A DNA stretch of 64,000 nucleotides from positions 2,658,422 to 2,722,421 of the forward strand of contig NZ_CP147243.1 of assembly GCF_037198285.1 (NCBI RefSeq), written 5' to 3'. A model generated the notes under the pieces. That model was not told where the DNA came from, did not search any database, and saw only the letters and a program-made list of their open reading frames with translations. Every line of letters starts with the position of its first letter. The stretch's first letter is position 1. Made by a program: the position numbers and the translations under genes. This stretch comes from Haladaptatus sp. DJG-WS-42 (lineage in GTDB: Archaea > Halobacteriota > Halobacteria > Halobacteriales > Halococcaceae). This document shows, in pieces, positions 3,846-28,692 of this stretch.

Positions 3846-4457
3846 TCACTCACTTGCTTCGACTACCTGCTCGTAGGCGAACAGCGGTGCGGCGAACACT
3901 GCCTGGAACTGTGCGGTTGCCTGCTCGGGGTTTTCTGCGAGCAACCTGATACGCTCTGCCTGCCGCCCCGCCAATTCGCGGCGAAGGTCTGGGAGTGTCG
4001 TCTCCCCGCCGGAAATCCGGTCGCTGTCGCCGAGGACGAGCAGAAGGTCGTCGACGCCGTCTAACTCCTCGGTCAGGTGGGCGAACGTCGCGCCCGTCCC
4101 CGCCTCGTTTGGCGCGTAGGCGAACAGCAAGCGGGCGTTGTGAATAATCTCCGAGGCCTCCTCGTGGAGGTTCGTCTCGGTTCCCACCTTTCGTAGGTCA
4201 AGCTCGACGCCAACGACGTAGACTGCGGGCCCATCGGGAAGTTCGCCCGCCGCCTCATGGAGGGCGTCGAGCACCGGGCCGAACACGATTTCGAAGCGGT
4301 CGTCGTCCATCCGCAAGAGATCTGCGCCAATCGCGTCCGCCCGGTCTTGATTCGGCGTGAGCAACGCGGCCACCTGTGGCGACACTGTTGCCTCGGCCGT
4401 CGGGTCGTCCTCCGCGAACGTCACGCCCGTATTCGAAAGCAGGGAGTCCTCGGACAT
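3846..4457 (-). CDS. Haloarchaeal protein of unknown function (possibly DUF5821)
   Basis: Product of 203 residues, acidic and soluble with no membrane segment. The ATG at 4457 (MSEDSLL) is preferred over an upstream ATG because the intervening residues are basic and unlike the rest. Central beta-alpha stretches such as AVYVVGVELDL and DLLLVLGDSDR give it the look of a Rossmann-like or RecA-like fold, but no Walker motif is present. I recall a similar haloarchaeal family, DUF5821, without being able to check it. It is divergent from the RadA-like/PolB2 cassette and shares the 200-base intergenic region with it, so common regulation is possible. Confidence 0.75.
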   Translation of the reverse strand: MSEDSLLSNTGVTFAEDDPTAEATVSPQVAALLTPNQDRADAIGADLLRMDDDRFEIVFGPVLDALHEAAGELPDGPAVYVVGVELDLRKVGTETNLHEEASEIIHNARLLFAYAPNEAGTGATFAHLTEELDGVDDLLLVLGDSDRISGGETTLPDLRRELAGRQAERIRLLAENPEQATAQFQAVFAAPLFAYEQVVEASE

Positions 4458-4660
4458 GGTACAGCGTTCACTGTCGAGCGGTAAAATCATACACCTTCGC
4501 TGAAACTTCACTTCCGGCACGCGACTTTCCGTGCTAGCGATCTAAAACCCACAGACTGCGGGCCACCGTTTGCCACAACCGTCTCCACTTTCACTTTCAC
4601 CGTGGTTGGATGGGTCGCCATTATCCCACTCTTCGCCGACTGTTCAGCTAGGAAACACGC

Positions 4661-5332
4661 ATGACTGCTGGCTCTCACTCCTCGGCGCTGCCCTCGCTCG
4701 GGGACGGCGTGACACAGTTACACCGTCCCGCGGGGCGTTCGCTCGCGCTCCCACAACTCGTCGTTAACGACCTGCTCACCGGCGACGGCGAGACGTTTTG
4801 GGTCGATACCCGCGAGACGGCGACGACTTACGCGCTCTCCGACCTCGCCCCGAGCGAACGCACCCTTCGCGGCGTCCACATCGCGCGGGCCTTTACCGCC
4901 TACCAGCACCACACGCTCGTCTGCAAACTCGTCGCGCAGGCCACGCCCGAAACGAACCTGCTCGTCGTCCCCGAAATCGACGCACTGTACGCCGACGATG
5001 ACGTGCCCGAGTACGAGGGCGAAGACTTGCTCACGGCGTCGTTGACCATCCTGCGCGAACTCGCCACGTCGCTCGGCGTTCGCGTGCTCGTCACGTCGGC
5101 AGGAACCCACCTCTCACAGCTCGTCGCAGCCCATGCAGACACGGAAATCACGTGTACAGAAACCGCTCTCGGCTTCCACTACGAAGCGCCCGACTTCGAG
5201 ACGCTCGTCTACTGGGGCGACGGCTTTTGGCAAACGACGATTCCGTACTGGGTTGAACTATTTGGCACAGTCGACGAGTTCGACCCCGTCATCGCCGCCG
5301 CCGACAACGGCTGGTTCGACGCGGAGGCCTGA
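4661..5332 (+). CDS. RadA/RecA-fold protein with degraded P-loop, first gene of PolB2 cassette
   Basis: Product of 223 residues resembling the ATPase core of RadA/KaiC proteins. The segment RPAGRSLALPQLVVN (22-36) aligns with the Walker A region of RadA, but the first glycine is missing and Arg26 replaces the P-loop lysine. The hydrophobic strand LLVVPEIDAL (100-109) matches the Walker B position, and GVHIARAF (71-78) resembles the RadA segment before it. ATP hydrolysis is therefore doubtful. It lies 3 bases upstream of the next gene and then PolB2. A RecA-fold accessory subunit beside an atypical polymerase recalls bacterial ImuA; that parallel is inference. Confidence 0.75.
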   Translation: MTAGSHSSALPSLGDGVTQLHRPAGRSLALPQLVVNDLLTGDGETFWVDTRETATTYALSDLAPSERTLRGVHIARAFTAYQHHTLVCKLVAQATPETNLLVVPEIDALYADDDVPEYEGEDLLTASLTILRELATSLGVRVLVTSAGTHLSQLVAAHADTEITCTETALGFHYEAPDFETLVYWGDGFWQTTIPYWVELFGTVDEFDPVIAAADNGWFDAEA

Positions 5333-5335
5333 GCC

Positions 5336-5620
5336 ATGGGCCGGACGAACCCAACCTATCGACAGTTTCTCCGGCGCTACGAAACGCGCATGGCTCCCTT
5401 CCGCCGGGCGCTCAGAGCCGACGCACAGCCGCATTTCGACCGTCTGCTCGCTCGCGCCGATGAGTACGCTGACGCCGCGGGCTACCTGAACGCCCCCGAC
5501 CCGGAGCGCGCCATTCTCTTCTCGATGTTGCTCTCACAAGAACGCGAACTCACCACGCTACGCCGTGAACTCGACGCGCTGCGCGACCACCACGCAACCC
5601 ACTCAGATCACGAGCGATGA
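5336..5620 (+). CDS. 94-residue conserved protein of the PolB2 cassette
   Basis: Starts MGRTNPTYRQFLRRYETRM and is rich in Arg and Glu throughout, with a predicted helical C-terminus (LSQERELTTLRRELDALRD) that could form a coiled coil. The family is known to me only as a haloarchaeal protein of unknown function (DUF8156-like, from memory). It is 3 bases after the RadA-like gene and overlaps the PolB2 start by ATGA, so the three genes form one tightly coupled operon. A bridging role between the RecA-fold protein and the polymerase is a plausible but untested inference. Confidence 0.8.
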   Translation: MGRTNPTYRQFLRRYETRMAPFRRALRADAQPHFDRLLARADEYADAAGYLNAPDPERAILFSMLLSQERELTTLRRELDALRDHHATHSDHER

Positions 5621-7728
5621 CGTTCACCATTGACTTCCTCGGAGACGAGGTGGTCGAGTGGCGAAAAACTCCTGACGCTGTTGCGGCAACGCGAGTCACC
5701 GAGTACCACCCGCGCATCTACGTGGCTGGCCCGACAGACGCCCGCGACTGGTTGGAAGCGCGTCTCCGCACAGACCCGAAAGTTGCGCATCTCTGCACCA
5801 AGCAGTGGCGACTTGACTTGCGCTCGGCCACCCCCGACTCGGTTCTCCGCGTCGATATCGAACGAATCGACGACGTCCAGCCGCTCGCCTGTGAACTCAG
5901 ACACACCCACGAACGAGGGCGGTTCGCACCGGGGACGTTCCGGCTGTTCAACGTCGATTTCGCCCCGCAGTTTCGCTACTGTCTTGAGGAGGACGTTGAC
6001 CCGACGCCCGCCCATCCGCTTTCGACGTTCTCGATTCGGCTCTCCGAAAAGGCGCTCGCAGACGGCGACCTCTCGCACATCATCATCGACGGCGAAGACG
6101 TGAAAGGGGCTGAATCGGCGGTTTTACAGGCGCTCAGCCACCGTCTCGACCGCGCCGACCCGGACGTACTCGTCGTGAGCAACGGTGACGTGATTCCCCT
6201 CCTTGGACGGAAAGCCGAGGAACACGACGTGTCACTCTCGCTCGGCCGATTGCCGGGGTGGTCGCAGCTCGCGGGCGAAAACACCTATCAGAGCTACGGG
6301 CAGGTCGGTTTCTCTGCGGCCAGATACACCGTCCCCGGCCGGGTCGTCCTCGACACGTCGAACAGTTTTCTCTGGTCGAAATCGAGCCTCGACGGCTTGC
6401 TCGACCTCGTCCACCGGTCGTGGCGACCCTTACAGGAAACTGGCTGGGGAAGCATCGGAACCATCCTCACGTCCATCCAGATTCGAGAGGCGCTTTCCCG
6501 GGGCGTCCTCATCCCGTGGAACAAGTGGGACCCAGAGCAGTTCAAAGACGTGCGCACCCTCCATGCCGCAGACCGTGGCGGCTTCATCTTCGAACCTCGA
6601 GTTGGCCTCCACGAAAACGTCTACGAGGTGGACTTCGCCTCCCTGTACCCGACCATCATCTGTCGGCACAACATCAGCCCGGAGACGGTCTGCTGTCCGT
6701 GCGACCGCGAACACGCTGTCGTCCCCGAACTCGGCTACGAACTCTGTGACCGCCCGGGCTTTCTCCCCGAGGTACTCCAACCGATTCTCGACGACAGAGC
6801 GGAATTCAAAGCCCGTCTCGCGCAGAACCCATCCGAGGACGAACGCGCCTCGCTCGAAGCGCGCTCCAGCGCGCTCAAGTGGATTCTCGTCACGTGTTTT
6901 GGTTATCAGGGCTACCGAAACGCCAAATTCGGACGCATCGAGTGTCACGAAGCCCTCAACGCCTACGCCCGCGACATCCTCCTCCGGTCGAAAGTCCACC
7001 TCGAACGCGCGGGTTGGAACATCGTCCACGGCATCGTCGATAGCCTCTGGGTCACTGCCCGCGACCCCGCACCGACGCCAATCGAGGAGGTGGCGCAGAC
7101 GGTTTCAGACGATATCGGCATTCGTCTCGAATTCGAGAACCACTACGACTGGGTCTGTTTCGTGCCGAGACGCGGCGCTCCGGGCGGGGCACTCACCAAA
7201 TACTTCGGGAAGATTGCGGACGAAGACGCGTTCAAAATTCGGGGTATCGAAGCCCGCCAGCGGAGCACGCCCGCGTTCGTCCGCGAGGTGCAGTCAGACT
7301 TGCTCGACACCCTCGACAGCCACCGCGACGCGGCGGCCGTCTGCGACCGCCTCCGCCAGCATCTCCGCGTGCTTCGTCAGGGTGACGTAGACCCAAAATC
7401 GCTCGTCATCAGAAAGCGCGTCTCGAAGCCACTCGCGGGCTACAGCCAACGTACCCACACCGTCTCCGCGCTTCAGCGATACGCCAACCACGGCATGGCG
7501 CGAAATCCCGGCCAAGACGTGCGCTACGTCGTGGTGAACGACGGCGCGCGCTCAGCAGAACGCGTCCGCCTGCATTTTGAAGAGTGCGACAGCTACGACG
7601 CCGACTACTACGAAACGCTCCTCATTCGCGCCACAGAGAGCGTCGTCTCACCGCTCGGCTGGAATCGAGAACGAATCAGGCGCTACCTACGGGGTGATCG
7701 ACAACTCGGCCTTTCAGCGTTCGACTAA
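5617..7728 (+). CDS. polB2: Family B DNA polymerase, PolB2 type, with altered motif C
   Basis: Product of 703 residues, shorter than replicative archaeal PolB. Motif A is intact (VDFASLYPTII, Asp339). Motif B is recognisable from Lys421 but has TCFGY in place of NSxYG. Motif C reads HGIVDSLWV: the usual DTD is IVD, keeping only Asp475. The exonuclease II region has NGDVIPLL (189-196), which lacks the second acidic residue of NGDNFD. Archaeal PolB2 proteins were described as inactivated, though a Sulfolobus member was later reported to have lesion-related activity. Translational coupling to the two upstream genes suggests one complex, perhaps acting in damage tolerance. Confidence 0.92.
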   Translation: MTFTIDFLGDEVVEWRKTPDAVAATRVTEYHPRIYVAGPTDARDWLEARLRTDPKVAHLCTKQWRLDLRSATPDSVLRVDIERIDDVQPLACELRHTHERGRFAPGTFRLFNVDFAPQFRYCLEEDVDPTPAHPLSTFSIRLSEKALADGDLSHIIIDGEDVKGAESAVLQALSHRLDRADPDVLVVSNGDVIPLLGRKAEEHDVSLSLGRLPGWSQLAGENTYQSYGQVGFSAARYTVPGRVVLDTSNSFLWSKSSLDGLLDLVHRSWRPLQETGWGSIGTILTSIQIREALSRGVLIPWNKWDPEQFKDVRTLHAADRGGFIFEPRVGLHENVYEVDFASLYPTIICRHNISPETVCCPCDREHAVVPELGYELCDRPGFLPEVLQPILDDRAEFKARLAQNPSEDERASLEARSSALKWILVTCFGYQGYRNAKFGRIECHEALNAYARDILLRSKVHLERAGWNIVHGIVDSLWVTARDPAPTPIEEVAQTVSDDIGIRLEFENHYDWVCFVPRRGAPGGALTKYFGKIADEDAFKIRGIEARQRSTPAFVREVQSDLLDTLDSHRDAAAVCDRLRQHLRVLRQGDVDPKSLVIRKRVSKPLAGYSQRTHTVSALQRYANHGMARNPGQDVRYVVVNDGARSAERVRLHFEECDSYDADYYETLLIRATESVVSPLGWNRERIRRYLRGDRQLGLSAFD

Positions 7729-28416: not shown

Positions 28417-28692
28417 TCGACACGGAACGTGGCTGCACTATACCGAGCGTCGAAGCTGAGATGGGCGCGTGGCCCGGGTCAGAAGGTTCAGTACGCCGTG
28501 GTCGATGATTCACTGCGAGACATAGATCGGGTTGCACTCGCAAGCAGATACCTGAGTAAGTACGACGTCCCGTTCTACTGCGACCTCGTACTCCGGGCAA
28601 CAGAGAGTGTGATTTCCTCGTTTGGGTGGCGTCAGTCGCGGATTTCGTCGTATCTGTTTGGGCGGGTTAATGCGTCGCTCAGTTCGTATTGA
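28417..28692 (+). pseudogene. 3' relic of a PolB2-type DNA polymerase gene
   Basis: From about 28417 to the stop at 28692 the translation aligns with the C-terminus of the PolB2 protein at 5617-7728. The relic has GQKVQYAVVDD against GQDVRYVVVND, and LVLRATESVISSFGW against LLIRATESVVSPLGW. The alignment runs back to a TAA at 28414-28416, and no polymerase motifs A-C exist upstream because the BBE gene ends at 28347. About 90 of some 700 codons survive. The GTG at 28429 could start a small protein, but decay of a second PolB2 copy is the simpler reading. Confidence 0.72.

Follow-up and report, generated by a model that had tools for sequence, protein, structure and literature searches.

A PolB2 operon of Haladaptatus sp. 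DJG-WS-42 with the UV box of radA in its promoter

The window analysed here is a 64,000-nt stretch of DNA from Haladaptatus sp. DJG-WS-42 (contig NZ_CP147243.1, positions 2,658,422 to 2,722,421), in which three neighbouring genes on the forward strand encode a RadA-fold protein (iRadA), a small protein of the PPB2 type and a family-B DNA polymerase (PolB2). The genes, the promoter elements upstream of them and the motifs of the polymerase are as follows.

4589..4600, + strand: UV box TTTCACTTTCAC, a direct repeat; exact match, 20 nt upstream of TTATCC
4621..4626, + strand: putative TATA-like element TTATCC, 34 nt before the iRadA start codon
4661-5332, + strand: iRadA, 223 aa; RadA-fold protein with an inactivated ATPase site (R26, Walker B Asp lost)
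5336-5620, + strand: PPB2-like small protein (arCOG07300-type), 94 aa; N-terminal MGRT arm
5617-7728, + strand: PolB2, 703 aa; family-B DNA polymerase with altered motif C
6571..6582, + strand: DRGG motif, PolB2 residues 319-322; invariant in 58/58 haloarchaeal relatives
6631..6633, + strand: Asp339 in motif A of PolB2; present in all 58 haloarchaeal relatives
7033..7041, + strand: motif C I473-V474-D475 of PolB2; D475 in 58/58 and I473 in 57/58 relatives

An earlier note on this DNA had described the three genes as coupled by a 3-base gap and an ATGA overlap, and the reading frames bore this out, with 3 nt (5333-5335) between iRadA and PPB2 and a 4-nt overlap (5617-5620) between PPB2 and PolB2. 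The order iRadA-PPB2-PolB2 was seen in nearly all loci of relatives that have all three genes, so the arrangement is not due to chance. In a plasmid-type group of loci, PPB2 and PolB2 are separated by other sequence. The window also holds a remnant of a second PolB2 C-terminus (28420-28689, + strand; 43% identity to residues 613-702), which has an in-frame stop just upstream and is read as a decayed copy.

The first protein had been proposed to have a RecA/RadA fold. In the Pfam search, iRadA matched Rad51 below the cutoff (E 0.0012). A profile made from a 43-sequence haloarchaeal alignment retrieved RadA and RAD51 chains from the PDB (best E 7.8e-12), and the AlphaFold2 model (pLDDT 90.3) retrieved RadA, DMC1 and RAD51 in Foldseek (E 1.5e-10, TM about 0.6), confirming the proposed fold. 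The hhalign probability for the iRadA and RadA pair was just 22% (E 0.0009), so the identification of iRadA rests on the PDB searches. As the earlier note had claimed, the P-loop lysine is replaced by Arg26: in the profile-to-sequence alignment with RadA of the same genome, G25-R26-S27 of iRadA lay over G-K-S, R26 being aligned to the Walker A lysine. The Walker B sequence is LLCVDS in that RadA and LLVVPE in iRadA, with a proline at the Asp position. With 223 aa against the 344 aa of RadA, iRadA is a RadA homologue without the N-terminal helical domain and with an inactivated ATPase, as expected for a PolB2 operon. The C-terminal tails of haloarchaeal iRadA proteins, examined by eye, were variable, and a clear clamp-binding QxxLxxFF was not found in them.

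The small protein begins with MGRT, which is the PPB2 N-terminus of PolB2 operons, and M/V/L-G-R-T stands at the N-terminus of nearly all of its 61 haloarchaeal relatives. It fits the definition of PPB2 given in PMC11791011. Its 94 aa matched no Pfam family, and none of the polymerases among them.

PolB2 was identified by DNA_pol_B in Pfam (2.6e-28) and by NF004418 in NCBIfam (930 bits, cutoff 692), and its AlphaFold2 model (pLDDT 86.9) retrieved archaeal family-B polymerases in Foldseek, including 9N polymerase at E 1.7e-39. Its motif C reads HGIVDSLW. In the alignment with Pyrococcus PolB, whose corresponding residues are YIDTD, Ile takes the place of the first Asp of DxD and the second, D475, is retained, which together with NF004418 places the protein in the PolB2 group of family-B polymerases. 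This motif had been called eroded, which is right for the first Asp (Ile in 57/58 relatives); the second is intact in all 58. D339 and D475, which we take to be the two metal-binding aspartates of family B, are thus both kept, so a missing first Asp in DxD is no proof that PolB2 is inactive. In the alignment of the 58 relatives the DRGG motif is preceded by LHxA, and we take it to be the D(K/R) motif to which PPB2 binding is attributed (PMC11791011).

The claim that one polymerase subunit is catalytically dead did not survive, given these two presumed ligands and a Sulfolobus relative of PolB2 that has the same Asp loss and is an active polymerase, required for targeted mutagenesis (PMC11791011). 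The same paper reports that Sulfolobus Dpo2 is damage-induced. When the family was first described, PolB2 was proposed to be an inactive structural scaffold or a handoff factor for PolB3/PolD, in this case with iRadA and PPB2. Such a role would suit both the Ile at the first motif C position and the active-site changes noted in PMC4104785; set against the conserved D339 and D475 and the active Sulfolobus relative, it appears unlikely. An active PolB2 is the reading that we follow below, in which polymerase activity, a role in mutagenesis and the modelled complex would carry over from published work on relatives.

The distribution of the genes was examined in 292 haloarchaeal genomes. With differing search cutoffs (1e-60 for PolB2, 1e-8 for iRadA), PolB2 was found in 186 genomes and iRadA in 177; both were present in 172, PolB2 only in 14, iRadA only in 5 and neither in 101 (Fisher p about 1e-55, not corrected for kinship). 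A scan of genome contigs with one single protein gave 3 loci only. The co-conservation for which the earlier note had asked was thus found, with the gene order repeated in relatives. In a genome of the same genus (G124; L007/L072), the PolB2 counterpart on contig C1 lacks residues 483-568 with a change of frame, and the UV box of the operon is down to a single TTTCAC half, so the system can be lost. Contig C2 of that genome carries a second PolB2, accompanied by an Orc gene.

Upstream of iRadA, ACTTTCACTTTCAC is found at 4587-4600, and the end of the UV box lies 60 nt from the iRadA start codon. The motif TTTCACTTTCA was reported from Halobacterium, in the promoters of radA1 and of further UV-B-induced genes (Boubriak 2008, PMC2556686), in a paper from which polB2 is absent. 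The iRadA promoter carries this motif in the position it has in radA1, upstream of TATA and some 50-70 nt from the start codon, and the radA promoter of the window's genome (L082) has the same UV box. Among haloarchaeal radA promoters, the box was present at two mismatches or fewer in 55/57 and as exact TTTCACTTTCAC in 42. In the PolB2-operon promoters it occurred at no more than two mismatches in 11/62 (0.6 in shuffles) and at no more than one in 10/62 (0.04 in shuffles), and the independent cases are fewer because the 62 include two pairs that are near-duplicate or of one genus. Of 263 control upstream regions, 2 matched with at most one mismatch, and both were iRadA loci caught among the controls.

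The genome of the window has 8 TTTCACTTTCA sites against 3 for the reversed control, so the count is weak evidence, and the argument rests on position and on recurrence in relatives. Read by eye, most of the 8 sites are followed by an AT-rich element and by a start codon. Five of them precede radA, the iRadA operon, a glyoxalase gene, a DUF5790 gene and a small gene that lies ahead of a Prok-E2 gene (Pfam assignments); the other three are less clear. The small gene is an 86-aa ORF (L169, G000:C1:758498), and the Prok-E2 family gene behind it is a ubiquitin-like pathway component. That the PolB2-operon promoter shares the UV box of radA, the main DNA-repair gene, is the new element here; no earlier report of a radA-shared promoter box on the PolB2 operon was found in the open-licence PubMed Central literature searched.

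The intergenic region is common to iRadA and a divergent ORF (3846-4520, - strand; 224 aa, no Pfam family). Its start lies about 66 nt upstream of the UV box, which might therefore serve the divergent gene or stand before the operon by coincidence. Both are very unlikely. The box is oriented to iRadA, a TATA-like element lies 16-20 nt 3' of it in those relatives, with other upstream genes, where a TTA-type element was found, and the chance of a match at one mismatch or fewer is about 0.0006 per promoter. We treat the box as an element of the iRadA promoter.

Only a minority of haloarchaeal PolB2 operons carry the UV box. The majority of the others have a GGAA-N4/5-CGGAA box instead, and an Orc1/Cdc6-like gene (Cdc6_lid, Cdc6_C) lies upstream of many of these operons. 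The GGAA-N-CGGAA expression matched 37/62 PolB2-operon promoters against 1.5 expected, a descriptive figure since the expression was composed after viewing iRadA promoters; the promoters of the Orc1/Cdc6-like gene itself, which were not used for it, provide an independent check, and 19/26 of them carried the box. PolB2 genes that have moved away from iRadA had a GGAA-type box of their own in 7/9 loci whose upstream sequence was examined, which is again descriptive and gives no rate, since these loci were chosen partly through earlier GGAA matches. In the 263 controls, from which these genes had not been removed, 33 GGAA matches were found, mostly at iRadA, Orc1/Cdc6-like and PolB2 genes, with several in spurious frames.

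Across 12 genomes the exact GGAA pattern occurred 31 times against 2 for the reversed control; 13 occurrences were at orc/iRadA promoters and 18 elsewhere, many of them in coding sequence. The mark of a promoter is the full signature, in which the GGAA box is combined with ACCC/CACGCC and TTTAT/CTTAT. Two loci away from orc/iRadA genes, L199 (G064) and L193 (G142), have GGAA-type boxes with promoter-like sequence downstream and may be further targets. More distant Orc1/Cdc6-like genes (L165, L166), located upstream of the L011 and L016 operons, have own promoters with a one-mismatch UV box.

Halobacterium polB2 was described in 2007 as linked to an Orc5-clade gene, both being dispensable, with orc4 as the orc gene concerned, and the function of the link was then "currently unknown" (PMC1906834). 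We assume that the polB2-linked Orc family here is the Orc5 clade. In the window, a GGAA-type box was not found in the iRadA promoter, and an Orc of the polB2-linked clade was not found in the genome at E 1e-40; regulation by Orc is therefore not proposed for this operon.

An upstream Orc gene was present in 0/11 operons with the UV box and in 28/44 others (Fisher 1e-4). On the PolB2 tree the switch trait changes at least 6 times, counting L062 (3 mismatches) as a UV box too, and since supported branches hold no more than 2 independent pairs, the link between the UV box and the lack of an upstream Orc gene is suggestive only; as an established link it was dropped once kinship was considered. 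A wider proposal, whose chances we regard as even, is that haloarchaea keep the PolB2 mutasome as a damage regulon of its own, in which two switches can replace each other: an autoregulated Orc1/Cdc6-like factor in most lineages, or the radA UV box. The former switch may be modelled on Sulfolobus Orc1-2, which binds its own box: an Orc1/Cdc6-like protein, probably the product of the Orc5-clade gene linked to polB2, would act as an autoregulated transcription factor and bind GGAA-N4/5-CGGAA before its own gene, iRadA-PPB2 and relocated polB2 genes. Lineages without an Orc gene beside the operon, such as that of the window, would have rewired it to the radA UV box. Read in this way, the shared boxes predict a damage regulon and its candidate regulator.

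For the window itself, we consider it quite likely that a PolB2 translesion complex is encoded here and is switched on by UV together with radA via the shared TTTCACTTTCAC box. PolB2 would work as a non-proofreading extender polymerase, and iRadA, as a RadA-fold subunit without catalytic activity, would dock on PolB2 as RadA does on RadA in a filament. A PPB2 trimer would hold its MGRT arm wedged between PolB2, iRadA and the primer-template. UV damage would turn on the operon alongside radA through the box just upstream of the TATA element; both UV induction and translesion function are what we infer for Haladaptatus sp. DJG-WS-42. Published work on relatives gives good support to a mutasome role, an idea that is not new.

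A radA-type UV box on a PolB2 promoter makes the UV-response role directly testable in haloarchaea, for which the open-licence PubMed Central literature searched names no damage regulator. The box common to orc, the iRadA operon and relocated polB2, or elsewhere to radA, offers defined promoters in genetically tractable haloarchaea. If the proposal is true, Orc-controlled damage responses would reach from Sulfolobus to euryarchaea.

The PolB2 operon was reportedly described by Rogozin in 2008. Makarova 2014 (PMC4104785) described the three-gene association and noted active-site changes, and Timinskas 2025 (PMC11791011) introduced the names PPB2 and iRadA and presented a model of a PolB2-iRadA-PPB2(3) complex, the PolB2 mutasome, with Pol V as the comparison. 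A function of this kind for the cassette was thus already in print, and the hypothesis of the earlier note was a rediscovery. The locus shares with the PolB2 mutasome / Dpo2 operon (arCOG07763/04294/08101, arCOG07300) its gene content and order as well as the inactive ATPase, MGRT arm, presumed D(K/R) motif and IxD motif C; it differs as a haloarchaeal branch with a radA-shared promoter box.

The earlier note had compared the cassette with ImuA-ImuB-DnaE2, and this parallel held for iRadA and ImuA only. Both systems place an inactive RecA-fold partner (ImuA1/A2) within a damage-tolerance complex; iRadA and ImuA1/A2 both have the RecA fold without Walker motifs, and the polymerase subunit binds ImuA or iRadA by imitating the RecA/RadA oligomerisation motif (PMC12926913, PMC11791011), the latter paper leaving ImuA and ImuB unmentioned. 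A strict equivalent, with iRadA as ImuA, PPB2/PolB2 as the dead adaptor and synthesis by PolB3, PolD or a Y-family enzyme, would build on these likenesses and is highly improbable. The bacterial set has two polymerase-fold subunits of its own, one of them dead. In the operon, no dead Y-family subunit (ImuB) and no C-family DnaE2 ORF were found; PPB2 has no polymerase family match, and the sole polymerase is family B and keeps its presumed metal ligands. Strict equivalence was rejected, as the operon has neither a dead polymerase adaptor nor a second polymerase gene.

In composition the translesion complex proposed here is closer to Pol V (UmuC-UmuD'2-RecA), which likewise has a RecA/RadA-fold subunit gripped via a mimic of the oligomerisation motif and a small oligomeric subunit whose N-terminal arm lies close to the active site (PMC11791011). 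Pol V uses a Y-family polymerase, active RecA and a UmuD' dimer, whereas the PolB2 set has a B-family polymerase, a dedicated inactive paralogue and PPB2 modelled as a trimer. As to regulation, the promoter agrees with the haloarchaeal radA1 UV-B motif TTTCACTTTCA (PMC2556686) both in sequence and in placing upstream of the TATA element. The Sulfolobus Orc1-2/DDRE (ANTTTC) regulon differs in that the GGAA-type candidate box is unlike ANTTTC and the window's genome is without that Orc clade (E 1e-40); it is alike in that many haloarchaea have a polB2-linked Orc1/Cdc6-like gene and a common promoter box, and ACTTTC inside the UV box fits ANTTTC.
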